DNA of 64,000 bases from Siphonodentalium dalli (taxonomy: Eukaryota > Mollusca > Scaphopoda > Gadilida > Siphonodentaliidae): contig CP136064.1 in NCBI GenBank assembly GCA_032622095.1, positions 124,001-188,000 of the forward strand. The letters are read 5' to 3'. The notes under the pieces are model-generated. The model had not been told where the DNA came from, did no database searches, and saw nothing but the letters and a program-made list of their open reading frames with translations. Below, in pieces: positions 26,167-57,966 of the stretch. How positions within the stretch are numbered: the first letter of the stretch is position 1; each line of letters begins with the position of its first letter. The position numbers were made by a program, and so were the translations under genes.

Positions 26167-26171
26167 GTTGG
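26167..26171. other. Tail-to-tail inversion junction 1 (5 bp overlap GTTGG)
   Basis: The + monomer reads CTTCATGTTGG and the - monomer reads GTTGGTGACTGTG. They share GTTGG, so the exact breakpoint lies within these five bases. It joins consensus 140-144 to the complement of consensus 210-214. Everything to the left is in + orientation and the next 26 kb is in - orientation. Confidence 0.96.
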
Positions 26172-29156
26172 TGACTGTGTTACTTATGTTCCTTTAAGTT
26201 GAGATACATCCGTTCCTTTAAACATACATTTGCATTGCAACATGAAGATATTTATTTTCTGTAGTCATTGTAAATGACAACCCGATTCGGATATGGCCAG
26301 ATTTGACATGGCGCGGTATGGAGAAACATGCGCCAAATAGAAAATATCCAACCGTACTCCACCATGGAACCAGTCTATAGCAGATACCCCTTAAAGTTGG
26401 TGACTGTGTTACTTATGTCCCTTTAAGTTGAGATACATCTGTTCCTTTAAACATACATTTGCATTCCAACATGAAGATATTTATTTTCTGTAGTCATTGT
26501 AAATGACAACCCGATTCGGATATGGCCAGATTTGACATGGCGCGGTATGGAGAAACATGCGCCAAATAGAAAATATCCAACCGTACTCCACCATGGAACC
26601 AGTCTAAATCAGACACCTCTTTAAGTTGGTGACTGTGTTACTTATGTTCCTTTAAGTTGAGATACATCTGTTCCTTTAAACATACATTTGCTTTCCAACA
26701 TGAAGATATTTATTTTCTGTAGTCATTGTAAATGACAACCCGATTCGGATATGGCCAGATTTGACATGGCGCGGTATGGAAAAACATGCGCCAAAATGAA
26801 AATATCCAACCGTACTCCACCATGGAACCAGTCTATAGCAGATACCCCTTAAAGTTGGTGACTGTGTTACTTATGTCCCTTTAAGTTGAGATACATCTGT
26901 TCCTTTAAGCATACATTTGCATTCCAACATGAAGATATTTATTTTCTGTAGTCATTGTAAATGACAACCCGATTCGGATATGGCCAGATTTGACATGGCG
27001 CGGTAGGGAGAAACATGCGCCAAATTGAAAATATCCAACAGTACTCTACCATGGAACCAGTCTATAGCAGATACCCCTTAAAGTTGGTGACTGTGTTACT
27101 TATGTCCCTTTAAGTTGAGATACATCTGTTTCTTTAAACATACATTTGCATTCCAACATGAAGATATTTATTTTCTGTAGTCATTGTAAATGACAACCCG
27201 ATTCGGATATGGCCAGATTTGACATGGCGCGGTATGGAGAAACATGCGCCAAATTGAAAATATCCAACCGTACTCCACCATGTAACCAGTCTATAGCAGA
27301 TACCCCTTAAAGTTGGTGACTGTGTTACTTATGTCCCTTTAAGTTGAGATACATCTGTTCCTTTAAACATACATTTGCATTCCAACATGAAGATATTTAT
27401 TTTCTGTAGTCATTGTAAATGACAACCCGATTCGGATATGGCCAGATTTGACATGGCGCGGTATGGAGAAACATGCGCCAAATAGAAAATATCCAACCGT
27501 ACTCCACCATGGAACCAGTCTAAATCAGACACCTCTTTAAGTTGGTGACTGTGTTACTTATGTTCCTTTAAGTTGAGATACATCTGTTCCTTTAAACATA
27601 CATTTGCATTCCAACATGAAGATATTTATTTTCTGCAGTCATTGTAAATGACAACCCGATTCGGATATGGCCAGATTTGACATGGCGCGGTATGGAGAAA
27701 CATGCGCAAAATTGAAAATATCCAACCGTACTCCACCATGTAACCAGTCTATAGCAGATACCCCTTAAAGTTGGTGACTGTGTTACTTATGTCCCTTTAA
27801 GTTGAGATACATCTGTTCCTTTAAGCATACATTTGCATTCCAACATGAAGATATTTATTTTCTGTAGTCATTGTAAATGACAACCCGATTCGGATATGGC
27901 CAGATTTGACATGGCGCGGTATGGAGAAACATGCGCCAAATTGAAAATATCCAACAGTACTCCACCATGGAACCAGTCTATAGCAGATACCCCTTAAAGT
28001 TGGTGACTGTGTTACTTATGTTCCTTTAAGTTGAGATACATCTGTTTCTTTAAACATACATTTGCATTCCAACATGAAGATATTTATTTTCTGTAGTCAT
28101 TGTAAATGACAACCCGATTCGGATATGGCCAGATTTGACATGGCGCGGTATGGAGAAACATGCGCCAAATAGAAAATATCCAACCGTACTCCACCATGGA
28201 ACCAGTCTATAGCAGATACCCCTTAAAGTTGGTGACTGTGTTACTTATGTCCCTTTAAGTTGAGATACATCTGTTCCTTTAAACATACATTTGCATTCCA
28301 ACATGAAGATATTTATTTTCTGTAGTCATTGTAAATGACAACCCGATTCGGATATGGCCAGATTTGACATGGCGCGGTATGGAGAAACATGCGCCAAATA
28401 GAAAATATCCAACCGTACTCCACCATGGAACCAGTCTAAATCAGACACCTCTTTAAGTTGGTGACTGTGTTACTTATGTTCCTTTAAGTTGAGATACATC
28501 TGTTCCTTTAAACATACATTTGCATTCCAACATGAAGATATTTATTTTCTGCAGTCATTGTAAATGACAACCCGATTCGGATATGGCCAGATTTGACATG
28601 GCGCGGTATGGAGAAACATGCGCAAAATTGAAAATATCCAACCGTACTCCACCATGTAACCAGTCTATAGCAGATACCCCTTAAAGTTGGTGACTGTGTT
28701 ACTTATGTCCCTTTAAGTTGAGATACATCTGTTCCTTTAAACATACATTTGCATTCCAACATGAAGATATATATTTTCTGCAGTCATTGTAAATGACAAC
28801 CCGATTCGGATATGGCCAGATTTGACATGGCGCGGTATGGAGAAACATGCGCAAAATTGAAAATATCCAACCGTACTCCACCATGTAACCAGTCTATAGC
28901 AGATACCCCTTAAAGTTGGTGACGGTGTTACTTATGTCCCTTTAAGTTGAGATACATCTGTTCCTTTAAACATACATTTGCATTCCAACATGAAGATATT
29001 TATTTTCTGCAGTCATTGTAAATGACAACCCGATTCGGATATGGCCAGATTTGACATGGCGCGGTATGGAGAAACATGCGCCAAATTGAAAATATCCAAC
29101 CGTACTCCACCATGGAACCAGTCTATAGCAGATACCCCTTAAAGTTGGTGACTGTG
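26172..29156 (-). repeat. Irregular start of reverse block 2, with a 4-monomer sub-period
   Basis: The first monomers next to the junction are J-like (TTGCATTGCAAC, ATCCGTTCC) and K-like (CAAATAGAAAATATCC). The GTCTAAATCAGACACC boundary recurs near 26,605, 27,520 and 28,435; the last two are 916 bp (four monomers) apart, as are the GCAAAATTG copies that follow each. The monomer at about 26,630 (TTGCTTTCC, TGGAAAAAC) is the reverse-orientation form of the one at 25,814 on the other side of the junction. Confidence 0.82.
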
Positions 29157-30988
29157 TTACTTATGTCCCTTTAAGTTGAGATACATCTGTTCCTTTAAAC
29201 ATACATTTGCATTCCACCATGAAGATATATATTTTCTGCAGTCATTGTAAATGACAACCCGATTCGGATATGGCCAGATTTGACATGGCGCGGTATGGAG
29301 AAACATGCGCCAAATTGAAAATATCCAACCGTACTCCACCATGGAACCAGTCTATAGCAGATACCCCTTAAAGTTGGTGACTGTGTTACTTATGTCCCTT
29401 TAAGTTGAGATACATCTGTTCCCTTAAACATACATTTGCATTCCAACAAGAAGATACATATTTTCTGCAGTCATTGTAAATGACAACCCGATTCGGATAT
29501 GGCCAGATTTGACATGGCGCGGTATGGAGAAACATGCGCCAAATTGAAAATATCCAACCGTACTCCACCATGGAACCAGTCTATAGCAGATACCCCTTTA
29601 AGTTGGTGACTGTGTTACTTATGTCCCTTTAAGTTGAGATACATCTGTTCCTTTAAACATACATTTGCTTTCCAACATGAAGATATTTATTTTCTGTAGT
29701 CATTGTAAATGACAACCCGATTCGGATATGGCCAGATTTGACATGGCGCGGTATGGAAAAACATGCGCCAAATTGAAAATATCCAACCGTACTCCACCAT
29801 GGAACCAGTCTATAGCAGATACCCCTTAAAGTTGGTGACTGTGTTACTTATGTCCCTTTAAGTTGAGATACATCTGTTCCTTTAAACATACATTTGCATT
29901 CCAACATGAAGATATTTATTTTCTGTAGTCATTGTAAATGACAACCCGATTCGGATATGGCCAGATTTGACATGGCGTGGTAGGGAGAAACATGCGCCAA
30001 ATTGAAAATATCCAACAGTACTCCACCATGGAACCAGTCTATAGCAGATACCCCTTAAAGTTGGTGACTGTGTTACTTATGTTCCTTTAAGTTGAGATAC
30101 ATCTGTTTCTTTAAACATACATTTGCATTCCAACATGAAGATATTTATTTTCTGTAGTCATTGTAAATGACAACCCGAATCGGATATGGCCAGATTTGAC
30201 ATGGCGCGGTATGGAGAAACATGCGCCAAATAGAAAATTTCCAACCGTACTCCACCATGGAACCAGTCTATAGCAGATACCCCTTAAAGTTGGTGACTGT
30301 GTTACTTATGTCCCTTTAAGTTGAGATACATCTGTTCCTTTAAACATACATTTGCATTCCAACATGAAGATATTTATTTTCTGTAGTCATTGTAAATGAC
30401 AACCCGATTCGGATATGGCCAGATTTGACATGGCGCGGTATGGAGAAACATGCGCCAAATAGAAAATATCCAACCGTACTCCACCATGGAACCAGTCTAA
30501 ATCAGACACCTCTTTAAGTTGGTGACTGTGTTACTTATGTTCCTTTAAGTTGAGATACATCTGTTCCTTTAAACATACATTTGCATTCCAACATGAAGAT
30601 ATTTGTTTTCTGCAGTCATTGTAAATGACAACCCGATTCGGATATGGCCAGATTTGACATGGCGCGGTATGGAGAAACATGCGCAAAATTGAAAATATCC
30701 AACCGTACTCCACCATGTAACCAGTCTATAGCAGATACCCCTTAAAGTTGGTGACTGTGTTACTTATGTCCCTTTAAGTTGAGATACATCTGTTCCTTTA
30801 AACATACATTTGCATTCCAACATGAAGATATATATTTTCTGCAGTCATTGTAAATGACAACCCGATTCGGATATGGCCAGATTTGACATGGCGCGGTATG
30901 GAGAAACATGCGCAAAATTGAAAATATCCAACCGTACTCCACCATGGAACCAGTCTATAGCAGATACCCCTTAAAGTTGGTGACTGTG
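29157..30988 (-). repeat. Higher-order repeat, 8 monomers, 1,832 bp (copy 1)
   Basis: Eight reverse monomers repeated directly in the next unit. Markers shared at an offset of 1,832 bp include AACAAGAAGATACATATT (near 29,445), TTTGCTTTCC (29,665), GGCGTGGTAGGG (29,974), CCCGAATCGG (30,175) and ATTTGTTTTCTGCAG (30,601). The first monomer (29,157) is a plain consensus copy. Confidence 0.9.
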
Positions 30989-32820
30989 TTACTTATGTCC
31001 CTTTAAGTTGAGATACATCTGTTCCTTTAAACATACATTTGCATTCCACCATGAAGATATATATTTTCTGCAGTCATTGTAAATGACAACCCGATTCGGA
31101 TATGGCCAGATTTGACATGGCGCGGTATGGAGAAACATGCGCCAAATTGAAAATATCCAACCGTACTCCACCATGGAACCAGTCTATAGCAGATACCCCT
31201 TAAAGTTGGTGACTGTGTTACTTATGTCCCTTTAAGTTGAGATACATCTGTTCCCTTAAACATACATTTGCATTCCAACAAGAAGATACATATTTTCTGC
31301 AGTCATTGTAAATGACAACCCGATTCGGATATGGCCAGATTTGACATGGCGCGGTATGGAGAAACATGCGCCAAATTGAAAATATCCAACCGTACTCCAC
31401 CATGGAACCAGTCTATAGCAGATACCCCTTTAAGTTGGTGACTGTGTTACTTATGTCCCTTTAAGTTGAGATACATCTGTTCCTTTAAACATACATTTGC
31501 TTTCCAACATGAAGATATTTATTTTCTGTAGTCATTGTAAATGACAACCCGATTCGGATATGGCCAGATTTGACATGGCGCGGTATGGAAAAACATGCGC
31601 CAAATTGAAAATATCCAACCGTACTCCACCATGGAACCAGTCTATAGCAGATACCCCTTAAAGTTGGTGACTGTGTTACTTATGTCCCTTTAAGTTGAGA
31701 TACATCTGTTCCTTTAAACATACATTTGCATTCCAACATGAAGATATTTATTTTCTGTAGTCATTGTAAATGACAACCCGATTCGGATATGGCCAGATTT
31801 GACATGGCGTGGTAGGGAGAAACATGCGCCAAATTGAAAATATCCAACAGTACTCCACCATGGAACCAGTCTATAGCAGATACCCCTTAAAGTTGGTGAC
31901 TGTGTTACTTATGTTCCTTTAAGTTGAGATACATCTGTTTCTTTAAACATACATTTGCATTCCAACATGAAGATATTTATTTTCTGTAGTCATTGTAAAT
32001 GACAACCCGAATCGGATATGGCCAGATTTGACATGGCGCGGTATGGAGAAACATGCGCCAAATAGAAAATTTCCAACCGTACTCCACCATGGAACCAGTC
32101 TATAGCAGATACCCCTTAAAGTTGGTGACTGTGTTACTTATGTCCCTTTAAGTTGAGATACATCTGTTCCTTTAAACATACATTTGCATTCCAACATGAA
32201 GATATTTATTTTCTGTAGTCATTGTAAATGACAACCCGATTCGGATATGGCCAGATTTGACATGGCGCGGTATGGAGAAACATGCGCCAAATAGAAAATA
32301 TCCAACCGTACTCCACCATGGAACCAGTCTAAATCAGACACCTCTTTAAGTTGGTGACTGTGTTACTTATGTTCCTTTAAGTTGAGATACATCTGTTCCT
32401 TTAAACATACATTTGCATTCCAACATGAAGATATTTGTTTTCTGCAGTCATTGTAAATGACAACCCGATTCGGATATGGCCAGATTTGACATGGCGCGGT
32501 ATGGAGAAACATGCGCAAAATTGAAAATATCCAACCGTACTCCACCATGTAACCAGTCTATAGCAGATACCCCTTAAAGTTGGTGACTGTGTTACTTATG
32601 TCCCTTTAAGTTGAGATACATCTGTTCCTTTAAACATACATTTGCATTCCAACATGAAGATATATATTTTCTGCAGTCATTGTAAATGACAACCCGATTC
32701 GGATATGGCCAGATTTGACATGGCGCGGTATGGAGAAACATGCGCAAAATTGAAAATATCCAACCGTACTCCACCATGTAACCAGTCTATAGCAGATACC
32801 CCTTAAAGTTGGTGACGGTG
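30989..32820 (-). repeat. Higher-order repeat, 8 monomers, 1,832 bp (copy 2)
   Basis: A tandem copy of the preceding unit, with the same markers near 31,277, 31,497, 31,806, 32,007 and 32,433. The order then changes from 32,821 (AACTTACATTTGC), so only two full copies are present. Confidence 0.9.
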
Positions 32821-35339
32821 TTACTTATGTCCCTTTAAGTTGAGATACATCTGTTCCTTTAAACTTACATTTGCATTCCAACATGAAGATATATATTTTC
32901 TGCAGTCATTGTAAATGACAACCCGATTCGGATATGGCCAGATTTGACATGGCGCGGTATGGAGAAACATGCGCCAAATTGAAAATATCCAACCGTACTC
33001 CACCATGGAACCAGTCTATAGCAGATACCCCTTAAAGTTGGTGACTGTGTTACTTATGTCCCTTTAAGTTGAGATACATCTGTTCCTTTAAACATACATT
33101 TGCATTCCACCATGAAGATATATATTTTCTGCAGTCATTGTAAATGACAACCCGATTCGGATATGGCCAGATTTGACATGGCGCGGTATGGAGAAACATG
33201 CGCAAAATTGAAAATATCCAACCGTACTCCACCATGTAACCAGTCTATAGCAGATACCCCTTAAAGTTGGTGACTGTGTTACTTATGTCCCTTTAAGTTG
33301 AGATACATCTGTTCCTTTAAACATACATTTGCATTCCAACATGAAGATATATATTTTCTGCAGTCATTGTAAATGACAACCCGATTCGGATATGGCCAGA
33401 TTTGACATGGCGCGGTATGGAGAAACATGCGCAAAATTGAAAATATCCAACCGTACTCCACCATGTAACCAGTCTATAGCAGATACCCCTTAAAGTTGGT
33501 GACGGTGTTACTTATGTCCCTTTAAGTTGAGATACATCTGTTCCTTTAAACATACATTTGCATTCCAAAATGAAGATATATATTTTCTGCAGTCATTGTA
33601 AATGACAACCCGATTCGGATATGGCCAGATTTGACATGGCGCGGTATGGAGAAACATGCGCCAAATTGAAAATATCCAACCGTACTCCACCATGGAACCA
33701 GTCTATAGCAGATACCCTTTAAAGTTGGTGACTGTGTTACTTATGTCCCTTTAAGTTGAGATACATCTGTTCCTTTAAACATACATTTGCATTCCAACAT
33801 GAAGATATATATTTTCTGCAGTCATTGTAAATGACAACCCGATTCGGATATGGCCAGATTTGACATGGCGCGGTATGGAGAAACATGCGCCAAATTGAAA
33901 ATATCCAACCGTACTCCACCATGGAACCAGTCTATAGCAGATACCCCTTAAAGTTGGTGACTGTGTTACTTATGTCCCTTTAAGTTGAGATACATCTGTT
34001 CCTTTAAACATACATTTGCATTCCACCATGAAGATATATATTTTCTGCAGTCATTGTAAATGACAACCCGATTCGGATAGGGCCAGATTTGACATGACGC
34101 GGTATGGAGAAACATGCGCCAAATTGAAAATATCCAACCGTACTCCACCATGGAACCAGTCTATAGCAGATACCCCTTTAAATTGGTGACTGTGTTACTT
34201 ATGTCCCTTTAAGTTGAGATACATCTGTTCCTTTAAACATACATTTGCATTCCACCATGAAGATATATATTTTCTGCAGTCATTGTAAATGACAACCCGA
34301 TTCGGATATGGCCAGATTTGACATGGCGCGGTATGGAGAAAAATGCGCCAAATTGAAAATATCCAACCGTACTCCACCATGGAACCAGTCTATAGCAGAT
34401 ACCCCTTTAAGTTGGTGACTGTGTTACTTATGTCCCTTTAAGTTGAGATACATCTGTTCCTTTAAACATACATTTGCATTCCAACATGAAGATATTTATT
34501 TTCTGTAGTCATTGTAAATGACAACCCGATTCGGATATGGCCAGATTTGACATGGCGCGGTATGGAAAAACATGCGCCAAATTGAAAATATCCAACAGTA
34601 CACCACCATGGAACCAGTCTATAGCAGATACCCCTTAAAGTTGGTGACTGTGTTACTTATGTCCCTTTAAGTTGAGATACATCTGTTCCTTTAAACATAC
34701 ATTTGCATTCCAACATGAAGATATTTATTTTCTGTAGTCATTGTAAATGACAACCCGATTCGGATATGGCCAGATTTGACATGGCGCGGTAGGGAGAAAC
34801 ATGCGCCAAATTGAAAATATCCAACCGTACTCCACCATGGAACCAGTCTATAGCAGATACCCCTTAAAGTTGGTGACTGTGTTACTTATGTCCCTTTAAG
34901 TTGAGATACATCTGTTCCTCTAAACATACATTTGCATTCCAACATGAAGATATTTATTTTCTGTAGTCATTGTAAATGACAACCCGATTCGGATATGGTT
35001 AGATTTGACATGGCGCGGTATGGAGAAACATGCGCCAAGTAGAAAATATCCAACCGTACTCCACCATGGAACCAGTCTAAATCAGACACCTCTTTAAGTT
35101 GGTGACTGTGTTACTTATGTCCCTTTAAGTTGAGATACATCTGTTCCTTTAAACATACATTTGCATTCCAACATGAAGATATTTATTTTCTGCAGTCATT
35201 GTAAATGACAACCCGATTCGGATATGGCCAGATTTGACATGGCGCGGTAGGGAGAAACATGCGCAAAATTGAAAATATCCAACCGTACTCCACCATGTAA
35301 CCAGTCTATAGCAGATACCCCTTCAAGTTGGTGACGGTG
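32821..35339 (-). repeat. Irregular reverse monomers, eleven copies
   Basis: Mixed monomers. A GTAACC/GCAAAATTG monomer followed by one starting with GTGACGGTG recurs near 32,592 and 33,279, a 687 bp (3-monomer) spacing. Near 34,880-35,330 the reverse forms of types A (CCAAGTAGAAAATATCC) and I (CTTCAAGTTGGTGACGG) appear, leading into the H monomer at 35,340. The H-I-A order of block 1 is therefore preserved here in reverse. Confidence 0.85.
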
Positions 35340-38300
35340 TTACTTATGTCCCTTTAAGTTGAGATACATCTGTTCCTTTAAACATTCATTTGCATTCCAA
35401 CATGAAGATATATATTTTCTGCAGTCATTGTAAATGACAACCCGATTCGGATATGGCCAGATTTGACATGGCGCGGTATGGAGAAACATGCGCCAAATTG
35501 AAAATATCCAACCGTACTCCACCATGGAACCAGTCTATAGCAGATACCCCTTAAAGTTGGTAACTGTGTTACTTATGTCCCTTTAAGTTGAGATACATCT
35601 GTTCCTTTAAACATACATTTGCATTCCACCATGAAGATATATATTTTCTGCAGTCATTGTAAATGACAACCCGATTCGGATAGGGCCAGATTTGACATGG
35701 CGCGGTATGGAGAAACATGCGCCAAATTGAAAATATCCAACCGTACTCCACCATGGAACCAGTCTATAGCAGATACCCCTTTAAGTTGGTGACTGTGTTA
35801 CTTATGTCCCTTTAAGTTGAGATACATCTGTTCCTCTAAACATACATTTGCATTCCACCATGAAGATATATATTTTCTGCAGTCATTGTAAATGACAACC
35901 CGATTCGGATATGGCCAGATTTGACATGGCGCGGTAGGGAGAAACATGCGCCAAATTGAAAATATCCAACAGTACTCCACCATGGAACCAGTCTATAGCA
36001 GATACCCCTTAAAGTTGGTGACTGTGTTACTTATGTCCCTTTAAGTTGAGATACATCTGTTCCTTTAAACATACATTTGCTTTCCAACATGAAGATATTT
36101 ATTTTCTGTAGTCATTGTAAATGACAACCCGATTCGGATATGGCCAGATTTGACATTGCGCGGTAGGGAGAAACATGCGCCAAATTGAAAATATCCAACA
36201 GTACTCCACCATGGAACCAGTCTATAGCAGATACCCCTTAAAGTTGGTGACTGTGTTACTTATGTCCCTTTAAGTTGAGATACATCTGTTTCTTTAAACA
36301 TACATTTGCATTCCAACATGAAGATATTTATTTTCTGTAGTCATTGTAAATGACAACCCGATTCGGATATGGCCAGATTTGACATGACGCGGTAGGGAGA
36401 AACATGCGCCAAATTGAAAATATCCAACAGTACTCCACCATGGAACCAGTCTATAGCAGATACCCCTTAAAGTTGGTGACGTGTTACTTATGTCCCTTTA
36501 AGTTGAGATACATCTGTTCCTTTAAACATACATTTGCATTCCAACATGAAGATATTTATTTTCTGTAGTCATTGTAAATGACAACCCGATTCGGATATGG
36601 CCAGATTTGACATGGCGCGGTATGGAGAAACATGCGCCAAATAGAAAATATCCAACCGTACTCCACCATGGAACCAGTCTATAGCAGATACCCCTTAAAG
36701 TTGGTGACTGTGTTACTTATGTCCCTTTAAGTTGAGATACATCTGTTCCTTTAAACATACATTTGCATTCCACCATGAAGATATATATTTTCTGCAGTCA
36801 TTGTAAATGACAACCCGATTCGGATAGGGCCAGATTTGACATGGCGCGGTATGGAGAAACATGCGCCAAATTGAAAATATCCAACCGTACTCCACCATGG
36901 AACCAGTCTATAGCAGATACCCCTTAAAGTTTGTGACTGTGTTACTTATGTCCCTTTAAGTTGAGATACATCTGTTCCTTTAAACATACATTTGCATTCC
37001 ACCATGAAGATATATATTTTCTGCAGTCATTGTAAATGACAACCCGATTCGGATAGGGCCAGATTTGACATGGCGCGGTATGGAGAAACATGCGCCAAAT
37101 TGAAAATATCCAACCGTACTCCACCATGGAACCAGTCTATAGCAGACACCCCTTTAAGTTGGTGACTGTGTTACTTATGTCCCTTTAAGTTGAGATACAT
37201 CTGTTCCTCTAAACATACATTTGCATTCCACCTTGAAGATATATATTTTCTGCAGTCATTGTAAATGACAACCCGATTCGGATATGGCCAGATTTGACAT
37301 GGCGCGGTATGGAGAAACATGCGCCAAATTGAAAATATCCAACCGTACTCCACCATGGAACCAGTCTATAGCAGATACCCCTTTAAGTGGGTGACTGTGT
37401 TACTTATGTCCCTTTAAGTTGAGATACATCTGTTCCTTTAAACATACATTTGCTTTCCAACATGAAGATATTTATTTTCTGTAGTCATTGTAAATGACAA
37501 CCCGATTCGGATATGGCCAGATTTGACATTGCGCGGTAGGGAGAAACATGCGCCAAATTGAAAATATCCAACAGTACTCCACCATGGAACCAGTCTATAG
37601 CAGATACCCCTTAAAGTTGGTGACTGTGTTACTTATGTCCCTTTAAGTTGAGATACATCTGTTTCTTTAAACATACATTTGCATTCCAACATGAAGATAT
37701 TTATTTTCTGTAGTCATTGTAAATGACAACCCGATTCGGATATGGCCAGATTTGACATGACGCGGTAGGGAGAAACATGCGCCAAATTGAAAATATCCAA
37801 CAGTACTCCACCATGGAACCAGTCTATAGCAGATACCCCTTAAAGTTGGTGACGTGTTACTTATGTCCCTTTAAGTTGAGATACATCTGTTCCTTTAAAC
37901 ATACATTTGCATTCCAACATGAAGATATTTATTTTCTGTAGTCATTGTAAATGACAACCCGATTCGGATATGGCCAGATTTGACATGGCGCGGTATGGAG
38001 AAACATGCGCCAAATAGAAAATATCCAACCGTACTCCACCATGGAACCAGTCTATAGCAGATACCCCTTAAAGTTGGTGACTGTGTTACTTATGTCCCTT
38101 TAAGTTGATATACATCTGTTCCTCTAAACATACATTTGCATTCCAAAATGAAGATATTTATTTTCTGTAGTCATTGTAAATGACAACCCGATTCGGATAT
38201 GGCCAGATTTGACATGGCGCGGTATGGAGAAACATGCGCCAAGTAGAAAATATCCAACCGTACTCCACCATGGAACCAGTCTAAATCAGACACCTCTTTA

Positions 38301-41300: not shown

Positions 41301-43574
41301 CCTTTAAGTTGATATACATCTGTTCCTCTAAACATACATTTGCATTCCAAAATGAAGATATTTATTTTCTGTAGTCATTGTAAATGACAACCCGATTCGG
41401 ATATGGCCAGATTTGACATGGCGCGGTATGGAGAAACATGCGCCAAGTAGAAAATATCCAACCGTACTCCACCATGGAACCAGTCTAAATCAGACACCTC
41501 TTTAAGTTGGTGACTGTGTTACTTATGTCCCTTTAAGTTGAGATACATCTGTTCCTTTAAACATACATTTGCATTCCAACATGAAGATATTTATTTTCTG
41601 CAGTCATTGTAAATGACAACCCGATTCGGATATGGCCAGATTTGACATGGCGCGGTATGGAGAAACATGCGCAAAATTGAAAATATCCAACCGTACTCCA
41701 CCATGTAACCAGTCTATAGCAGATACCCCTTCAAGTTGGTGACGGTGTTACTTATGTCCCTTTAAGTTGAGATACATCTGTTCCTTTAAACATTCATTTG
41801 CATTCCAACATGAAGATATATATTTTCTGCAGTCATTGTAAATGACAACCCGATTCGGATATGGCCAGATTTGACATGGCGCGGTATGGAGAAACATGCG
41901 CCAAATTGAAAATATCCAACCGTACTCCACCATGGAACCAGTCTATAGCAGATACCCCTTAAAGTTGGTGACTGTGTTACTTATGTCCCTTTAAGTTGAG
42001 ATACATCTGTTCCTTTAAACATACATTTGCATTCCACCATGAAGATATATATTTTCTGCAGTCATTGTAAATGACAACCCGATTCGGATATGGCCAGATT
42101 TGACATGGCGCGGTATGGAGAAACATGCGCCAAATTGAAAATATCCAACCGTACTCCACCATGGAACCAGTCTATAGCAGATACCCCTTTAAGTTGGTGA
42201 CTGTGTTACTTATGTCCCTTTAAGTTGAGATACATCTGTTCCTCTAAACATACATTTGCATTCCACCATGAAGATATATATTTTCTGCAGTCATTGTAAA
42301 TGACAACCCGATTCGGATATGGCCAGATTTGACATGGCGCGGTATGGAGAAACATGCGCCAAATTGAAAATATCCAACCGTACTCCACCATGGAACCAGT
42401 CTATAGCAGATACCCCTTTAAGTGGGTGACTGTGTTACTTATGTCCCTTTAAGTTGAGATACATCTGTTCCTTTAAACATACATTTGCTTTCCAACATGA
42501 AGATATTTATTTTCTGTAGTCATTGTAAATGACAACCCGATTCGGATATGGCCAGATTTGACATTGCGCGGTAGGGAGAAACATGCGCCAAATTGAAAAT
42601 ATCCAACAGTACTCCACCATGGAACCAGTCTATAGCAGATACCCCTTAAAGTTGGTGACTGTGTTACTTATGTCCCTTTAAGTTGAGATACATCTGTTTC
42701 TTTAAACATACATTTGCATTCCAACATGAAGATATTTATTTTCTGTAGTCATTGTAAATGACAACCCGATTCGGATATGGCCAGATTTGACATGACGCGG
42801 TAGGGAGAAACATGCGCCAAATTGAAAATATCCAACAGTACTCCACCATGGAACCAGTCTATAGCAGATACCCCTTAAAGTTGGTGACGTGTTACTTATG
42901 TCCCTTTAAGTTGAGATACATCTGTTCCTTTAAACATACATTTGCATTCCAACATGAAGATATTTATTTTCTGTAGTCATTGTAAATGACAACCCGATTC
43001 GGATATGGCCAGATTTGACATGGCGCGGTATGGAGAAACATGCGCCAAATAGAAAATATCCAACCGTACTCCACCATGGAACCAGTCTATAGCAGATACC
43101 CCTTAAAGTTGGTGACTGTGTTACTTATGTCCCTTTAAGTTGATATACATCTGTTCCTCTAAACATACATTTGCATTCCAAAATGAAGATATTTATTTTC
43201 TGTAGTCATTGTAAATGACAACCCGATTCGGATATAGCCAGATTTGACATGGCGCGGTATGGAGAAAGATGCGCCAAGTAGAAAATATCCAACCGTACTC
43301 CACCATGGAACCAGTCTATAGCAGATACCACTTTAAGTTGGTGACTGTGTTACTTATGTCCCTTTAAGTTGAGATACATCTGTTCCTTTAAACATACATT
43401 TGCATTCCACCATAAAGATATATATTTTCTGCAGTCATTGTAAATGACAACCCGATTCGGATATGGCCAGATTTGACATGGCGCGGTATGGAGAAACATG
43501 CGCCAAATTGAAAATATCCAACCGTACTCCACCATGGAACCAGTCTATAGCAGATACCCCTTTAAGTGGGTGAC

Positions 43575-45860: not shown

Positions 45861-47012
45861 TGACTGTGTTACTTATGTCCCTTTAAGTTGAGATACATCT
45901 GTTCCTCTAAACATACATTTGCATTCCACCATGAAGATATATATTTTCTGCAGTCATTGTAAATGACAACCCGATTCGGATATGGCCAGATTTGACATGG
46001 CGCGGTATGGAGAAACATGCGCCAAATTGAAAATATCCAACCGTACTCCACCATGGAACCAGTCTATAGCAGATACCCCTTTAAGTGGGTGACTGTGTTA
46101 CTTATGTCCCTTTAAGTTGAGATACATCTGTTCCTTTAAACATACATTTGCTTTCCAACATGAAGATAATTATTTTCTGTAGTCATTGTAAATGACAACC
46201 CGATTCGGATATGGCCAGATTTGACATTGCGCGGTAGGGAGAAACATGCGCCAAATTGAAAATATCCAACAGTACTCCACCATGGAACCAGTCTATAGCA
46301 GATACCCCTTAAAGTTGGTGACTGTGTTACTTATGTCCCTTTAAGTTGAGATACATCTGTTTCTTTAAACATACATTTGCATTCCAACATGAAGATATTT
46401 ATTTTCTGTAGTCATTGTAAATGACAACCCGATTCGGATATGGCCAGATTTGACATGACGCGGTAGGGAGAAACATGCGCCAAATTGAAAATATCCAACA
46501 GTACTCCACCATGGAACCAGTCTATAGCAGATACCCCTTAAAGTTGGTGACGTGTTACTTATGTCCCTTTAAGTTGAGATACATCTGTTCCTTTAAACAT
46601 ACATTTGCATTCCAACATGAAGATATTTATTTTCTGTAGTCATTGTAAATGACAACCCGATTCGGATATGGCCAGATTTGACATGGCGCGGTATGGAGAA
46701 ACATGCGCCAAATAGAAAATATCCAACCGTACTCCACCATGGAACCAGTCTATAGCAGATACCCCTTAAAGTTGGTGACTGTGTTACTTATGTCCCTTTA
46801 AGTTGAGATACATCTGTTCCTTTAAACATACATTTGCATTCCACCATGAAGATATATATTTTCTGCAGTCATTGTAAATGACAACCCGATTCAGATAGGG
46901 CCAGATTTGACATGGCGCGGTATGGAGAAACATGCGCCAAATTGAAAATATCCAACCGAACTCCACCATGGAACCAGTCTATAGCAGATACCCCTTTAAG
47001 TTGATGACTGTG

Positions 47013-49529
47013 TTACTTATGTCCCTTTAAGTTGAGATACATCTGTTCCTCTAAACATACATTTGCATTCCACCATGAAGATATATATTTTCTGCAGTCA
47101 TTGTAAATGACAACCCGATTCGGATATGGCCAGATTTGACATGGCGCGGTATGGAGAAACATGCGCCAAATTGAAAATATCCAACCGTACTCCACCATGG
47201 AACCAGTCTATAGCAGATACCCCTTTAAGTGGGTGACTGTGTTACTTATGTCCCTTTAAGTTGAGATACATCTGTTCCTTTAAACATACATTTGCTTTCC
47301 AACATGAAGATATTTATTTTCTGTAGTCATTGTAAATGACAACCCGATTCGGATATGGCCAGATTTGACATTGCGCGGTAGGGAGAAACATGCGCCAAAT
47401 TGAAAATATCCAACAGTACTCCACCATGGAACCAGTCTATAGCAGATACCCCTTAAAGTTGGTGACTGTGTTACTTATGTCCCTTTAAGTTGAGATACAT
47501 CTGTTTCTTTAAACATACATTTGCATTCCAACATGAAGATATTTATTTTCTGTAGTCATTGTAAATGACAACCCGATTCGGATATGGCCAGATTTGACAT
47601 GACGCGGTAGGGAGAAACATGCGCCAAATTGAAAATATCCAACAGTACTCCACCATGGAACCAGTCTATAGCAGATACCCCTTAAAGTTGGTGACGTGTT
47701 ACTTATGTCCCTTTAAGTTGAGATACATCTGTTCCTTTAAACATACATTTGCATTCCAACATGAAGATATTTATTTTCTGTAGTCATTGTAAATGACAAC
47801 CCGATTCGGATATGGCCAGATTTGACATGGCGCGGTATGGAGAAACATGCGCCAAATAGAAAATATCCAACCGTACTCCACCATGGAACCAGTCTATAGC
47901 AGATACCCCTTAAAGTTGGTGACTGTGTTACTTATGTCCCTTTAAGTTGATATACATCTGTTCCTCTAAACATACATTTGCATTCCAAAATGAAGATATT
48001 TATTTTCTGTAGTCATTGTAAATGACAACCCGATTCGGATATGGCCAGATTTGACATGGCGCGGTATGGAGAAACATGCGCCAAGTAGAAAATATCCAAC
48101 CGTACTCCACCATGGAACCAGTCTAAATCAGACACCTCTTTAAGTTGGTGACTGTGTTACTTATGTCCCTTTAAGTTGAGATACATCTGTTCCTTTAAAC
48201 ATACATTAGCATTCCAACATGAAGATATTTATTTTCTGCAGTCATTGTAAATGACAACCCGATTCGGATATGGCCAGATTTGACATGGCGCGGTATGGAG
48301 AAACATGCGCAAAATTGAAAATATCCAACCGTACTCCACCATGTAACCAGTCTATAGCAGATACCCCTTCAAGTTGGTGACGGTGTTACTTATGTCCCTT
48401 TAAGTTGAGATACATCTGTTCCTTTAAACATTCATTTGCATTCCAACATGAAGATATATATTTTCTGCAGTCATTGTAAATGACAACCCGATTCGGATAT
48501 GGCCAGATTTGACATGGCGCGGTATGGAGAAACATGCGCCAAATTGAAAATATCCAACCGTACTCCACCATGGAACCAGTCTATTGCAGATACCCCTTAA
48601 AGTTGGTGACTGTGTTACTTATGTCCCTTTAAGTTGAGATACATCTGTTCCTTTAAACATACATTTGCATTCCACCATGAAGATATATATTTTCTGCAGT
48701 CATTGTAAATGACAACCCGATTCGGATAGGGCCAGATTTGACATGGCGCGGTATGGAGAAACATGCGCCAAATTGAAAATATCCAACCGTACTCCACCAT
48801 GGAACCAGTCTATAGCAGATACCCCTTTAAGTGGGTGACTGTGTTACTTATGTCCCTTTAAGTTGAGATACATCTGTTTCTTTAAACATACATTTGCATT
48901 CCAACATGAAGATATTTATTTTCTGTAGTCATTGTAAATGACAACCCGATTCGGATATGGCCAGATTTGACATGACGCGGTAGGGAGAAACATGCGCCAA
49001 ATTGAAAATATCCAACAGTACTCCACCATGGAACCAGTCTATAGCAGATACCCCTTAAAGTTGGTGACGTGTTACTTATGTCCCTTTAAGTTGAGATACA
49101 TCTGTTCCTTTAAACATACATTTGCATTCCAACATGAAGATATTTATTTTCTGTAGTCATTGTAAATGACAACCCGATTCGGATATGGCCAGATTTGACA
49201 TGGCGCGGTATGGAGAAACATGCGCCAAATAGAAAATATCCAACCGTACTCCACCATGGAACCAGTCTATAGCAGATACCCCTTAAAGTTGGTGACTGTG
49301 TTACTTATGTCCCTTTAAGTTGAGATACATCTGTTCCTTTAAACATACATTTGCATTCCACCATGAAGATATATATTTTCTGCAGTCATTGTAAATGACA
49401 ACCCGATTCAGATAGGGCCAGATTTGACATGGCGCGGTATGGAGAAACATGCGCCAAATTGAAAATATCCAACCGAACTCCACCATGGAACCAGTCTATA
49501 GCAGATACCCCTTTAAGTTGGTGACTGTG
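47013..49529 (-). repeat. 2,517 bp higher-order repeat, 11 monomers (copy 1)
   Basis: Eleven monomers minus two single-base deletions. Private markers ACATTAGCATTCC (near 48,203) and GTCTATTGCAG (near 48,580) recur exactly 2,517 bp later. The first eight monomers match the next copy in order; the rest belong to a second partial cassette. Confidence 0.87.
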
Positions 49530-52046
49530 TTACTTATGTCCCTTTAAGTTGAGATACATCTGTTCCTCTAAACATACATTTGCATTCCACCATGAAGATA
49601 TATATTTTCTGCAGTCATTGTAAATGACAACCCGATTCGGATATGGCCAGATTTGACATGGCGCGGTATGGAGAAACATGCGCCAAATTGAAAATATCCA
49701 ACCGTACTCCACCATGGAACCAGTCTATAGCAGATACCCCTTTAAGTGGGTGACTGTGTTACTTATGTCCCTTTAAGTTGAGATACATCTGTTCCTTTAA
49801 ACATACATTTGCTTTCCAACATGAAGATATTTATTTTCTGTAGTCATTGTAAATGACAACCCGATTCGGATATGGCCAGATTTGACATTGCGCGGTAGGG
49901 AGAAACATGCGCCAAATTGAAAATATCCAACAGTACTCCACCATGGAACCAGTCTATAGCAGATACCCCTTAAAGTTGGTGACTGTGTTACTTATGTCCC
50001 TTTAAGTTGAGATACATCTGTTTCTTTAAACATACATTTGCATTCCAACATGAAGATATTTATTTTCTGTAGTCATTGTAAATGACAACCCGATTCGGAT
50101 ATGGCCAGATTTGACATGACGCGGTAGGGAGAAACATGCGCCAAATTGAAAATATCCAACAGTACTCCACCATGGAACCAGTCTATAGCAGATACCCCTT
50201 AAAGTTGGTGACGTGTTACTTATGTCCCTTTAAGTTGAGATACATCTGTTCCTTTAAACATACATTTGCATTCCAACATGAAGATATTTATTTTCTGTAG
50301 TCATTGTAAATGACAACCCGATTCGGATATGGCCAGATTTGACATGGCGCGGTATGGAGAAACATGCGCCAAATAGAAAATATCCAACCGTACTCCACCA
50401 TGGAACCAGTCTATAGCAGATACCCCTTAAAGTTGGTGACTGTGTTACTTATGTCCCTTTAAGTTGATATACATCTGTTCCTCTAAACATACATTTGCAT
50501 TCCAAAATGAAGATGTTTATTTTCTGTAGTCATTGTAAATGACAACCCGATTCGGATATGGCCAGATTTGACATGGCGCGGTATGGAGAAACATGCGCCA
50601 AGTAGAAAATATCCAACCGTACTCCACCATGGAACCAGTCTAAATCAGACACCTCTTTAAGTTGGTGACTGTGTTACTTATGTCCCTTTAAGTTGAGATA
50701 CATCTGTTCCTTTAAACATACATTAGCATTCCAACATGAAGATATTTATTTTCTGCAGTCATTGTAAATGACAACCCGATTCGGATATGGCCAGATTTGA
50801 CATGGCGCGGTATGGAGAAACATGCGCAAAATTGAAAATATCCAACCGTACTCCACCATGTAACCAGTCTATAGCAGATACCCCTTCAAGTTGGTGACGG
50901 TGTTACTTATGTCCCTTTAAGTTGAGATACATCTGTTCCTTTAAACATTCATTTGCATTCCAACATGAAGATATATATTTTCTGCAGTCATTGTAAATGA
51001 CAACCCGATTCGGATATGGCCAGATTTGACATGGCGCGGTATGGAGAAACATGCGCCAAATTGAAAATATCCAACCGTACTCCACCATGGAACCAGTCTA
51101 TTGCAGATACCCCTTAAAGTTGGTGACTGTGTTACTTATGTCCCTTTAAGTTGAGATACATCTGTTCCTTTAAACATACATTTGCATTCCACCATGAAGA
51201 TATATATTTTCTGCAGTCATTGTAAATGACAACCCGATTCGGATAGGGCCAGATTTGACATGGCGCGGTATGGAGAAACATGCGCCAAATTGAAAATATC
51301 CAACCGTACTCCACCATGGAACCAGTCTATAGCAGATACCCCTTTAAGTTGGTGACTGTGTTACTTATGTCCCTTTAAGTTGAGATACATCTGTTCCTCT
51401 AAACATACATTTGCATTCCACCATGAAGATATATATTTTCTGCAGTCATTGTAAATGACAACCCGATTCGGATATGGCCAGATTTGACATGGCGCGGTAT
51501 GGAGAAACATGCGCCAAATTGAAAATATCCAACCGTACTCCACCATGGAACCAGTCTATAGCAGATACCCCTTTAAGTGGGTGACTGTGTTACTTATGTC
51601 CCTTTAAGTTGAGATACATCTGTTCCTTTAAACATACATTTGCTTTCCAACATGAAGATATTTATTTTCTGTAGTCATTGTAAATGACAACCCGATTCGG
51701 ATATGGCCAGATTTGACATTGCGCGGTAGGGAGAAACATGCGCCAAATTGAAAATATCCAACAGTACTCCACCATGGAACCAGTCTATAGCAGATACCCC
51801 TTAAAGTTGGTGACTGTGTTACTTATGTCCCTTTAAGTTGAGATACATCTGTTCCTTTAAACAAACATTTGCATTCCAACATGAAGATATTTATTTTCTG
51901 CAGTCATTGTAAATGACAACCCGATTCGGATATGGCCAGATTTGACATGGCGCGGTATGGAGAAACATGCGCCAAATTGAAAATATCCAACCGTACTCCA
52001 CCATGGAACCAGTCTATAGCAGATACCCCTTAAAGTTGGTGACTGT
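49530..52046 (-). repeat. 2,517 bp higher-order repeat (copy 2, diverging after eight monomers)
   Basis: It repeats the previous unit for eight monomers, including ACATTAGCATTCC near 50,720 and GTCTATTGCAG near 51,097. From 51,361 it switches to another cassette start (TTCCTCTAAAC, then TTGCTTTCC at about 51,640) and to the AACAAACATTTGC monomer near 51,860. It therefore ends as a recombinant unit. Confidence 0.82.
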
Positions 52047-52425
52047 GTTACTTATGTCCCTTTAAGTTGAGATACATCTGTTCCTTTAAACATACATTTG
52101 CATTCCAACATGAAGATATATACTTTCTGCAGTCATTGTAAATGACAACCCGATTCGGATATGGCCAGATTTGACATGGCGCGGTATGGTGAAACATGCG
52201 CCAAATTGAAAATATCCAACCGTACTCCACCATGGAACCAGTCTATAGCAGATACCCCTTAAAGTTGGTGACTGTGTTACTTATGTCCCTTTAAGTTGAG
52301 ATACATCTGTTCCTTTAAACATACATTTGCATTCCACCATGAAGATATATATTTTCTGCAGTCATTGTAAATGACAACCCGATTCAGATAGGGCCAGATT
52401 TGACATGGCGCGGTATGGAGAAACA

Positions 52426-52428
52426 TGC
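52426..52428. other. Head-to-head inversion junction (3 bp overlap TGC)
   Basis: The - monomer reads GGAGAAACATGCGCC in other copies and the + monomer reads ATCTGCTATAGACTGG. Here GAGAAACATGC runs straight into TATAGACTGG, sharing TGC. On the + side the break is at consensus 228-1, beside CTATAG; on the - side it is the complement of consensus 50-52. It cuts the - monomer anchored at about 52,277 and creates short chimeric open frames on both strands. Confidence 0.96.
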
Positions 52429-54163
52429 TATAGACTGGTTCCATGGTGGAGTACGGTTGGATATTTTCAATTTGGCGCATGTTTCTCCATACCGCGCCAT
52501 GTCAAATCTGGCCATATCCGAATCGGGTTGTCATTTACAATGACTGCAGAAAATATATATCTTCATGTTGGAATGCAAATGTATGTTTAAAGGAACAGAT
52601 GTATCTCAACTTAAAGGGACATAAGTAACACAGTCACCAACTTAAAGGGGTATCTGCTATAGACTGGTTCCATGGTGGAGTACGGTTGGATATTTTTAAT
52701 TTGGCGCATGTTTCTCCATACCGCGCCATGTCAAATCTGGCCATATCCGAATCGGGTTGTCATTTACAATGACTGCAGAAAATATATATCTTCATGTTGG
52801 AATGCAAATGTATGTTTAAAGGAACAGATGTATCTCAACTTAAAGGGAAATAAGTAACACAGTCACCAACTTTAAGGGGTATCTGCTATAAGCTGGTTCC
52901 ATGGTGGAGTACGGTTGGATATTTTCAATTTGGCGCATGTTTCTCCATACCGCGCCATGTCAAATCTGGCCCTATCTGAATCGGGTTGTCATTTACAATG
53001 ACTGCAGAAAATATATATCTTCATGGTGGAATGCAAATGTATGTTTAAAGGAACAGATGTATCTCAACTTAAAGGGACATAAGTAACACAGTCACCAACT
53101 TTAAGGGGTATCTGCTATAGACTGGTTCCATGGTGGAGTACGGTTGGATATTTTCAATTTGGCGCATGTTTCACCATACCGCGCCATGTCAAATCTGGCC
53201 ATATCCGAATCGGGTTGTCATTTACAATGACTGCAGAAAGTATATATCTTCATGTTGGAATGCAAATGTATGTTTAAAGGAACAGATGTATCTCAACTTA
53301 AAGGGACATAAGTAACACAGTCACCAACTTTAAGGGGTATCTGCTATAGACTGGTTCCATGGTGGAGTACGGTTGGATATTTTCAATTTGGCGCATGTTT
53401 CTCCATACCGCGCCATGTCAAATCTGGCCATATCCGAATCGGGTTGTCATTTACAATGACTGCAGAAAATAAATATCTTCATGTTGGAATGCAAATGTTT
53501 GTTTAAAGGAACAGATGTATCTCAACTTAAAGGGACATAAGTAACACAGTCACCAACTTAAAGGGGTATCTGCTTTAGACTGGTTCCATGGTGGAGTACG
53601 GTTGGATATTTTCAATTTGGCGCATGTTTCTCCATACCGCGCCATGTCAAATCTGGCCATATCCGAATCGGGTTGTCATTTACAATGACTGCAGAAAATA
53701 TATATCTTCATGTTGGAATGCAAATGTATGTTTAAAGGAACAGATGTATCTCAACTTAAAGGGACATAAGTAACACAGTCACCAACTTTAAGGGGTATCT
53801 GCTATAGACTGGTTCCATGGTGGAGTACGGTTGGATATTTTCAATTTGGCGCATGTTTCTCCATACCGCGCCATGTCAAATCTGGCCAATATCCGAATCG
53901 GGTTGTCATTTACAATGACTGCAGAAAATATATATCTTCATGTTGGAATGCAAATGTATGTTTAAAGGAACAGATGTATCTCAACTTAAAGGGACATAAA
54001 TAACACAGTCACCAACTTAAAGGGGTATCTGCTATAGACTGGTTCCATGGTGGAGTACGGTTGGATATTTTCAATTTGGCGCATGTTTCTCCATACCGCG
54101 CCATGTCAAATCTGGCCATATCCGAATCGGGTTGTCATTTACAATGACTGCAGAAAATATATA
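52429..54163 (+). repeat. Forward copy of reverse-block variants
   Basis: The monomers at 52,901 (GGCCCTATCTGAATCGG), 53,130 (TTTCACCATACC with GAAAGTATATATC), 53,359 (AAATGTTTGTTT) and 53,817 (GGCCAATATCC, ending CATAAATAAC) match, in the same relative order, the reverse monomers at 45,640, 45,411, 45,182 and 44,724. The first three also match the reverse monomers just left of the junction (52,277, 52,048 and 51,819). The region is thus an inverted copy of the neighbouring reverse array, offset by about two monomers. Confidence 0.83.
54160..54163 (+). other. Deletion junction, 102 bp lost, 4 bp overlap TATA
   Basis: CAGAAAATATATA passes directly into TATAGACTGG, sharing TATA. Consensus 129-132 is joined to positions 2-5 of the next monomer, leaving a 127 bp monomer (anchors 54,047 and 54,174). 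It marks the switch between two higher-order families. The break uses the same two TATA-like words as the deletion at 1,897, but in the complementary sense: there 126 bp is lost, here 102 bp. Confidence 0.93.
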
Positions 54164-57100
54164 GACTGGTTACATGGTGGAGTACGGTTGGATATTTTCA
54201 ATTTTGCGCATGTTTCTCCATACCGCGCCATGTCAAATCTGGCCATATCCGAATCGGGTTGTCATTTACAATGACTACAGAAAATAAATATCTTCATGTT
54301 GCAATGCAAATGTATGTTTAAAGGAACGGATGTATCTCAACTTAAAGGAACATAAGTAACACAGTCACCAACTTAAAGAGGTGTCTGATTTAGACTGGTT
54401 CCATGGTGGAGTACGGTTGGATATTTTCTATTTGGCGCATGTTTCTCCATACCGCGCCATGTCAAATCTGGCCATATCCGAATTGGGTTGTCATTTACAA
54501 TGACTACAGAAAATAAATATCTTCATGTTGGAATGCAAATGTATGTTTGAAGAAACAGATGTATCTCAACTTAAAGGAACATAAGTAACACAGTCACCAA
54601 CTTAAAGAGGTGTCTGATTTAGACTGGTTCCATGGTGGAGTACGGTTGGATATTTTCAATTTGGCGCATGTTTCTCCATACCGCGCCATGTCAAATCTGG
54701 CCCTATCCGAATCGGGTTGTCATTTACAATGACTGCAGAAAATATATATCTTCATGGTGGAATGCAAATATATGTTTAAAGGAACAGATGTATCTCAACT
54801 TAAAGGGACATAAGTATCACAGTCACCAACTTTAAGGGGTATCTGCTATAGACTGGTTCCATGGTGGAGTACGGTTGGATATTTTCAATTTGGCGCATGT
54901 TTCTCCATACCGCGCCATGTCAAATCTGGCCATATCCGAATCGGGTTGTCATTTACAATGACTGCAGAAAATATATATCTTCATGGTGGAATGCAAATGA
55001 ATGTTTAAAGGAACAGATGTATCTCAACTTAAAGGGACATAAGTAACACCGTCACCAACTTGAAGGGGTATCTGCTATAGACTGGTTACATGGTGGAGTA
55101 CGGTTGGATATTTTCAATTTTGCGCATGTTTCTACATACCGCGCCATGTCAAATCTGGCCATATCCGAATCGGGTTGTCATTTACAATGACTGCAGAAAA
55201 TAAATATCTTCATGTTGGAATGCAAATGTATGTTTAAAGGAACAGATGTATCTCAACTTAAAGGGACATAAGTAACACAGTCACCAACTTAAAGAGGTGT
55301 CTGATTTAGAATGGTTCCATGGTGGAGTACGGTTGGATATTTTCTACTTGGCGCATGTTTCTCCATACCGCGCCATGTCAAATCTGGCCATATCCGAATC
55401 GGGTTGTCATTTACAATGACTGCAGAAAATATATATCTTCATGGTGGAATGCAAATGTATGTTTAAAGGAACAGATGTATCTCAACTTAAAGGGACATAA
55501 GTAACACAGTCACCAACTTTAAGGGGTATCTGCTATAGACTGGTTACATGGTGGATTACGGTTGGATATTTTCAATTTTGCGCATGTTTCTCCATACCGC
55601 GCTATGTCAAATCTGGCCATATCCGAATCGGGTTGTCATTTACAATGACTACAGAAAATAAATATCTTCATGTTGCAATGCAAATGTATGTTTAAAGGAA
55701 CGGATGTATCTCAACTTAAAGGAACATAAGTAACACAGTCACCAACTTAAAGAGGTGTCTGATTTAGACTGGTTCCATGGTGGAGTACGGTTGGATATTT
55801 TCTATTTGGCGCATGTTTCTCCATACCGCGCCATGTCAAATCTGGCCATATCCGAATCGGGTTGTCATTTACAATGACTACAGAAAATAAATATCTTCAT
55901 GTTGGAATGCAAATGTATGTTTGAAGAAACAGATGTATCTCAACTTAAAGGGACATAAGTAACACAGTCACCAACTTTAAGGGGTATCTGCTATAGACTG
56001 GTTCCATGGTGGAGTACGGTTGGATATTTTCAATTTGGCGCATGTTTCTCCATACCGCGCCATGTCAAATCTGGCCATATCCGAATCGGGTTGTCATTTA
56101 CAATGACTGCAGAAAATATATATCTTCATGTTGGAATGCAAATGTATGTTTAAAGGAACAGATGTATCTCAACTTAAAGGGACATAAGTAACACCGTCAC
56201 CAACTTTAAGGGGTATCTGCTATAGACTGGTTCCATGGTGGAGTACTGTTGGATATTTTCAATTTGGCGCATGTTTCTCCCTACCGCGTCATGTGAAATC
56301 TGGCCATATCCGAATCGGGTTGTCATTTACAATGACTACAGAAAATAAATATCTTCATGTTGGAATGCAAATGTATGTTTAAAGAAACAGATGTATCTCA
56401 ACTTAAAGGGACATAAGTAACACAGTCACCAACTTTAAGGGGTATCTGCTATAGACTGGTTACATGGTGGAGTACGGTTGGATATTTTCAATTTTGCGCA
56501 TGTTTCTCCATACCGCGCCATGTCAAATCTGGCCATATCCGAATCGGGTTGTCATTTACAATGACTACAGAAAATATATATCTTCATGTTGCAATGCAAA
56601 TGTATGTTTAAAGGAACGGATGTATCTCAACTTAAAGGAACATAAGTAACACAGTCACCAACTTAAAGAGGTGTCTGATTTAGACTGGTTCCATGGTGGA
56701 GTACGGTTGGATATTTTCTATTTGGCGCATGTTTCTCCATACCGCGCCATGTCAAATCTGGCCATATCCGAATCGGGTTGTCATTTACAATGACTACAGA
56801 AAATAAATATCTTCATGTTGGAATGCAAATGTATGTTTGAAGGAACAGATGTATCTCAACTTAAAGGGACATAAGTAACACAGTCACCAACTTTAAGGGG
56901 TATCTGCTATAGACTGGTTCCATGGTGGAGTACGGTTGGATATTTTCTATTTGGCGCATGTTTCTCCATACCGCGCCATGTCAAATCTAGCCATATCCGA
57001 ATCGGGTTGTCATTTACAATGACTACAGAAAATAAATATCTTCATGTTGGAATGCAAATGTATGTTTAAAGAAACAGATGTATCTCAACTTAAAGGGACA

Positions 57101-57961
57101 TAAGTAACACAGTCACCAACTTTAAGGGGTATCTGCTATAGACTGGTTCCATGGTGGAGTACTGTTGGATATTTTCAATTTGGCGCATGTTTCTCCCTAC
57201 CGCGCCATGTCAAATCTGGCCATATCCGAATCGGGTTGTCATTTACAATAACTACAGAAAATAAATATCTTCATGTTGGAATGCAAATGTATGTTTAAAG
57301 GAACAGATGTATCTCAACTCAAAGGGACATAAGTAACACCGTCACCAACTTTAAGGGGTAACTGCTATAGACTGGTTACATGGTGGAGTACGGTTGGATA
57401 TTTTCAATTTTGCGCATGTTTCTCCATACCGCGCCATGTCAAATCTGGCCATATCCGAATCGGGTTGTCATTTACAATGGCTGCAGAAAATATATATCTT
57501 CATGTTGGAATGCAAATGTATGTTTAAAAAAACAGATGTATCTCAACTTAAAGGGACATAAGTAACACAGTCACCAACTTAAAGGGGTATCTGCTATAGA
57601 CTGGTTACATGGTGGAGTACGGTTGGATATTTTCAATTTTGCGCATGTTTCTCCATACCGCGCCATGTCAAATCTGGCCATATCCGAATCGGGTTGTCAT
57701 TTACAATGACTGCAGAAAATATATATCTTCATGGTGGAATGCAAATGTATGTTTAAAGGAACAGATGTATCTCAACTTAAAGGGACATAAGTAACACAGT
57801 CACCAACTTTAAGGGGTATCTGCTATAGACTGGTTCCATGGTGGAGTACGGTTGGATATTTTCAATTTGGCGCATGTTTCTCCATACCGCGCCATGTCAA
57901 ATCTGGCCATATCCGAATCGGGTTGTCATTTACAATGACTGCAGAAAATATATATCTTCAT
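54164..57961 (+). repeat. Second copy of the forward HOR
   Basis: Monomer order by anchor: J-like 54,174, K-like 54,403, F-like 54,632, H 54,861, I 55,090, A 55,319, J-like 55,548, K-like 55,777, G 56,006, C 56,235, J 56,464, K 56,693, L 56,922, M 57,151, two mixed copies, and a truncated last copy at 57,838. From 55,548 to the junction it follows 14,609-17,022 at a constant offset of 40,939 bp. Confidence 0.88.
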
Positions 57962-57966
57962 GTTGG
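57962..57966. other. Tail-to-tail inversion junction 2 (same GTTGG overlap)
   Basis: CTTCATGTTGGTGACTGTGTTAC is identical to the junction at 26,167, and the J-like (TTGCATTGCAAC, ATCCGTTCC) and K-like monomers that follow match as well. The left flanks differ: here the cut monomer follows copies with ATTTTGCGCATG, whereas at 26 kb it follows the TTTTTCC/GGAAAGC and GTTGGAAATTTT variants. Confidence 0.96.

Follow-up and report, generated by a model that had tools for sequence, protein, structure and literature searches.

A tail-to-tail change of orientation occurs twice, at the same base, within a satellite array of Siphonodentalium dalli, and the question raised by this locus is how one array came to hold the same join in two places. 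The stretch of DNA analysed, 64,000 nucleotides long and called the window below, corresponds to C4:124001-188000 and lies 124-188 kb from one end of C4, a 299-Mb contig of an assembly of 2.23 Gb in 9 contigs.

The array and its orientation switches

As shown by Tandem Repeats Finder, a 229-bp satellite spans the entire window. A 55-base satellite probe, allowing up to 2 mismatches, matched the assembly 8,720 times in forward and 1,108 times in reverse orientation. Among the matches listed, sites lay close to each end of C4 and around base 288.37 million of C3, and the array is subterminal on C4. TTAGGG-type repeats were present. A literature search returned no match for a subtelomeric satellite of 229 bp. 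We read C4:1-258000, which was divided into 1,117 monomers, including 30 partial ones. Random pairs of full monomers in these 258 kb differed by 3.3% on average. The orientation of the array switched nine times, with 0 to 5 bp of microhomology at the switches and one or two inserted bases at three of them.

Other features were seen on the same contig. C4 begins inside the array, and its first 1.5 kb (C4:1-1500), which held no telomere repeat, appeared by eye to be richer in single-base indels. C4:37322-67320 was occupied by an 11-monomer (2,519 bp) higher-order repeat of very recent origin, many of whose copies are identical. Non-satellite insertions, possibly mobile elements, were located within the array at C4:110320-112497 (2.2 kb) and C4:239147-242492 (3.3 kb). 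Near the other contig end, at C4:296297553-296297824, the spacing of pattern matches indicated a further + to - switch of the satellite.

The features of the window discussed below are as follows.

14531..17049, + strand: monomers 602-612, counterpart of the left flank of J2, with 25 differences over 2,492 compared bases
17050..26166, + strand: about 40 monomers (613-653) between the counterpart and J1, absent from copy 2
26167..26171, no strand: J1, tail-to-tail inversion junction, GTTGG common to both monomers, + phase 202 to - phase 48
26172..52425, - strand: monomers 654-769, which form the right arm of J1 and are related to the J2 right arm
52426..52822, + strand: monomers 770-771 after the head-to-head join, consensus-like, belonging to the spacer should the join be a fold-back
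52823..54159, + strand: monomers 772-777, inverted copy of J1-arm sequence, which holds the best two of 1,050 windows
54160..57961, + strand: monomers 778-794, of the left-array kind, starting at the TATA join and ending at J2
57962..57966, no strand: J2, second copy of the J1 junction, one of two exact copies in the assembly
57967..64000, - strand: right arm of J2, the part within the window, continuing to C4:222502

The first-pass annotation had reported the same GTTGG tail-to-tail junction at two positions, and this was confirmed: J1 and J2 are exact copies 31,795 bp apart, and a junction string of 32 bases reads the same at 26,157 and 57,952. The shared join stood as described; the consensus positions given for it, 140-144 and 210-214, belonged to that annotation's own numbering and correspond to + phase 202 and - phase 48 in ours. 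When up to 3 mismatches were allowed, the junction string matched the assembly six times. Two matches were exact and four had 3 mismatches each; read by their letters, these four appear to be ordinary monomers. Beyond these two, the assembly-wide pattern search yielded no exact copy. A genome with only one copy of the junction had been named as the sign of an assembly duplication, and the assembly searched contained two.

Taking the first base of the GTTGG overlap as offset 0, the sequences to the right of J1 and J2 first mismatched at offsets 403 and 525. With one mismatch within the first 525 bp, the next two reverse monomers are nearly identical, as had been claimed. Leftward, 104 bp were identical, mismatches followed at 105 and 152 bp, and many lay farther out. 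No palindrome was centred on J1 or J2, and the mirrored comparison was near random.

The variants pointed out near the junctions, TTGCATTGCAAC and ATCCGTTCC, are genuine and rare, and are denoted 207C and 4G in our consensus. Each was carried by 11 monomers out of the 1,117 in the 258 kb, and the two were mutually adjacent in 11 of 11 cases. The monomer following a 207C monomer in sense order (e.g. those at window positions 26,215 and 58,010) always carried 4G, on several backgrounds. Because the pair, searched as an exact 42-mer, had 20 occurrences in the assembly, all 20 on C4, it is not confined to the junctions, rare though it is. The 207C-4G haplotype was probably moved by short-tract exchange.

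Recurrence of one join at an identical base is the pattern of a duplicated inversion junction. It could also have been produced by two independent inversions through the same 5-bp microhomology, as orientation switches are frequent in this array (nine in 258 kb). Only 90 of 52,441 phase pairs, however, share at least 5 bases between strands, only 0.88% of random dimer pairs differ by one base or less, and the remaining two tail-to-tail joins in the 258 kb lie at other phases. Because of the first two figures taken together, a second independent inversion is very unlikely, in agreement with the earlier judgement. A simple inversion was considered and rejected: when phases were compared by eye, none of the nine switches in the 258 kb had a partner of reciprocal phase.

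The J1/J2 junction was not the only one found in two copies. Outside the window, one head-to-head junction is present at both C4:222503 and C4:243262, in opposite orientations; the two copies agree at every base over 1,763 bp (770 + 993). This junction had only two matches in the assembly at up to 3 mismatches, and its copies flank a tail-to-tail join at C4:228958. As both junctions are doubled, together they account for four of the nine switches in the 258 kb.

Homology on both sides of the junctions

The dimer to the right of J1 had its best match, with 1 difference, in the dimer to the right of J2 (1,085 windows). Since at least four other windows had only 2 differences, the dimer alone is weak evidence. 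Monomer 655 had at least five relatives elsewhere at 1 difference. An ungapped comparison of the right arms degraded past 2.2 monomers. The arms seemed unrelated beyond that point, an appearance that was reversed once whole-monomer gaps were allowed; with one extra monomer in arm 2, the homology continued.

To locate the relatives of the J1 arm, monomers 657-663 were ranked against 1,044 windows. The best window was 845-851 in the J2 arm (9 differences) and the second best was the near-collinear 799-805 (15 differences), while the best window outside the J2 arm had 18 differences. The possibility, raised in advance, that the right flanks are no more similar than random monomers of the array is contradicted by this ranking, the best two windows both lying in the J2 arm. 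Diagonals scoring above 10 were also counted. Of these the J1 arm and the J2 arm had 59 in common. Within the J1 arm itself there were 22, between it and the long left array 3, and between it and the other blocks listed none. The counts for the J2 arm were 36 within itself and, a point against the duplication account, 33 with the long left array. Rare 222C monomers kept a 4-monomer spacing in both arms (658/662 and 800/804).

Some observations on the right arms temper this. Arm 1 is closer to the internal arm-2 copy 845-851 than to the collinear one, which speaks against the duplication account, and both arms look like one homogenised sub-array, in itself a source of some similarity. The end of arm 1 (767-769) had no close match in arm 2 among the six best windows listed. 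A chain of 70 monomer pairs through the arms was built with cheap gaps and serves as a guide only. For its null distribution 150 starts were drawn, of which 101 were usable; 8 of the 101 scored above the J-anchored start (48.9), and all ten starts listed lie in the J2 arm.

The left flanks had been described as different, and immediately beside J1 and J2 this held, as they differ there about as much as random monomers. The flank of J2 nevertheless has a counterpart, monomers 602-612, displaced 9.1 kb to the left of J1. Ranked against 1,023 windows, monomers 784-793 had a clear best match in 602-611, with 25 differences against 41 for the runner-up. Monomers 784-794 and 602-612 were collinear up to the junction monomer, and 794 and 612 showed no difference over 202 bases, an identity tempered by the fact that 612-like monomers are common. 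The 4-monomer spacing of the 207C-4G pairs was kept in both left flanks (602/606 and 784/788). This window ranking was the test relied on for the left flank; a chain on the left scored only 3.0, an effect of its gap cost, and a diagonal search of the left flank of J2 yielded one weak diagonal (10.2). Flanking sequences on both sides are more related to each other than to other monomers of the array, with the displacement on the left.

The monomers 613-653 that separate the counterpart from J1 represent either a gain in copy 1 or a loss in copy 2. The 28 monomers directly left of J1 had no good match within the 258 kb, which counts against the duplication account and means that copy 1 must have changed since.

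Gene conversion, in which some existing boundary or array position would have received a short tract consisting of the junction plus roughly two monomers, has to be weighed against this two-sided homology. The best-matched tract is short, about 610 bp (104 bp to the left and 506 bp to the right), and the occurrence of 207C-4G on several backgrounds suggests that short-tract exchange does take place here. The homology, however, extends well past such a tract on both sides, and conversion of a short tract would not by itself reverse the arm that follows, so we consider this origin rather unlikely. The first-pass annotation had proposed one inversion followed by duplication or gene conversion of the junction region. 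Later copying of the junction was supported, but conversion of the junction alone leaves the two-sided homology unexplained. The first 506 bp to the right of the junction contain 1 difference where about 5 are expected at 1%, and this low divergence hints at later conversion.

A composite piece between the copies

At 52,426 lies a head-to-head join that had been read as the place where one copy meets the other. The join (52,425/52,426) is real; it has 3 bp of microhomology, TGC, and a single occurrence in the assembly, and it is out of monomer phase (116 to 62). The copies do not simply meet there, as inverted J1-arm sequence fills 52,823-54,159. Among 1,050 windows, monomers 772-777 were nearest to 740-735 (10 differences) and next to 769-764 (15 differences). 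Over 572 bases, monomers 772-774 are a perfect mirror image of 769-767. In a ranking of 1,063 windows, the only zero-difference matches of 767-769 were 738-740 and 774-772, the third best having 8 differences. Variants 219T, 122A and 189G mark monomers 773-774 and were otherwise found in the J1 arm only. Monomers 738-740, 6.5 kb away, are identical to 767-769. Because 772-777 are nearer to 740-735 than to 769-764, the inverted copy possibly did not come from a fold at the join, and its source may lie 6.5 kb inside the arm.

The inverted piece ends at a second out-of-phase join, 54,159/54,160 (phase 191 to 65), which has the microhomology TATA and was also found once in the assembly. Past 54,160 the left-array markers 207C, 4G, 225G and 139G appear, and the subset collinear with 602-612, monomers 784-794, covers 55,470-57,961. 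Monomers 770-771 and 780-781 had no clear source in the monomer comparisons. An assembly search found no second copy of the head-to-head join after arm 2. Both results weigh against the duplication account. The copy boundaries at 52,426 and 54,160 are both out of phase, whereas in-register unequal crossing over would leave them in phase.

A near-reciprocal pair of joins was noted in the window: 1,897/1,898 and 54,159/54,160 involve the same two monomer phases. At 1,897/1,898 (65 to 192) 126 bp are missing, and the stretch missing there is present twice, in different variants, at 54,159/54,160.

An assembly artefact, in which one locus was entered twice or a satellite was collapsed or expanded, would also yield two copies of a junction. 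The array is highly repetitive, its structure is known from the assembly alone, and the contig starts inside it without a telomere repeat. A simple double entry, however, would give identical flanks, and here both flanks show coherent variants and whole monomers that set one copy apart from the other; the intervening piece is composite, and its joins were found once in the assembly. We regard such an artefact as improbable.

Probable origin of the duplicated junction and comparison with known systems

It is probable, judging from the sequence comparisons, that one microhomology-joined inversion was followed by an out-of-phase duplication with inverted filler and then by local gain and loss of monomers. 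A + stretch of the subterminal 229-bp satellite would have been joined once to a - stretch via the 5-bp microhomology. The junction-bearing segment, including at least 2.5 kb (perhaps 3.8 kb) on the left and several kb on the right, would have been duplicated later within the array. In a plausible order of events, a broken end left of one junction would have copied inverted arm sequence and then resumed on the sister chromatid within the - arm, from where copying would have run back across the junction in the direction of the chromosome end. Later on, the copies would have come to differ by about 1%, and entire monomers would have been gained or lost.

From the out-of-phase joins, the microhomologies of 3-4 bp and the inverted arm sequence, we infer template-switching, break-induced repair, with the direction and order of events given above. 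Template switching would fit these features, and plain in-register unequal crossing over would fit them poorly. Later homologous exchange is also needed, because monomers have been gained or lost and 207C-4G stands on different backgrounds; later conversion at the junction is possible.

Whether the subterminal satellite arrays of this genome grow partly by repeated break-induced, template-switching copying, carrying old inversion junctions with them, is more doubtful, and we put it forward tentatively. If true, copied junctions would be datable scars, and orientation maps of the array would record successive repair events. Inversion junctions are near-unique markers within an otherwise uniform array, and a copied junction reveals both the movement of a segment and the stitching at its edges, which are hard to resolve in satellites. 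The locus thereby offers a base-level test case for satellite expansion through out-of-phase repair in addition to crossing over. The duplicated junction is no evidence of function and belongs to an ordinary mode of array evolution.

Microhomology-mediated break-induced replication, or fork stalling and template switching, produces joins with short microhomology. The present locus resembles it in having several joins with 3-5 bp of microhomology and inverted filler between duplicated segments; what is seen here is the end product alone, from one assembly.

In satellites of Tribolium madens, the accessible part of a published account describes conserved inversion sites of macro-dyad symmetries in thousands of copies, with 2,044 INV_1a and 3,486 INV_1b sequences and a distinctly diverged subunit at the site (PMC13081366). 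As in that account, the satellite studied here changes orientation and an inversion site recurs with near-identical sequence. It differs from what is described there in several respects. In place of many near-identical genome-wide copies, there are two copies of each of two junctions, those of J1/J2 being the only two exact ones in the assembly. The monomers at the junction are ordinary, with relatives of monomer 655 elsewhere, and not a diverged site-specific subunit. No mirrored arms were found around J1 and J2.

Human fold-back inverted duplications, in the portion of the report available, are terminal rearrangements of large size; their spacers measure 766-70,466 bp, and 13 sequenced junctions show 2-8 bp of microhomology (PMC3907307). 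Unlike these, the 52,426 join lies within a satellite and, if it is a fold-back, has perfect arms of 572 bp and a spacer of about 512 bp, with an equally identical source 6.5 kb away. Read as a fold-back, it would be similar to them, as far as they are described there, in its inverted copy, its short unduplicated spacer and its microhomology of a few bases.
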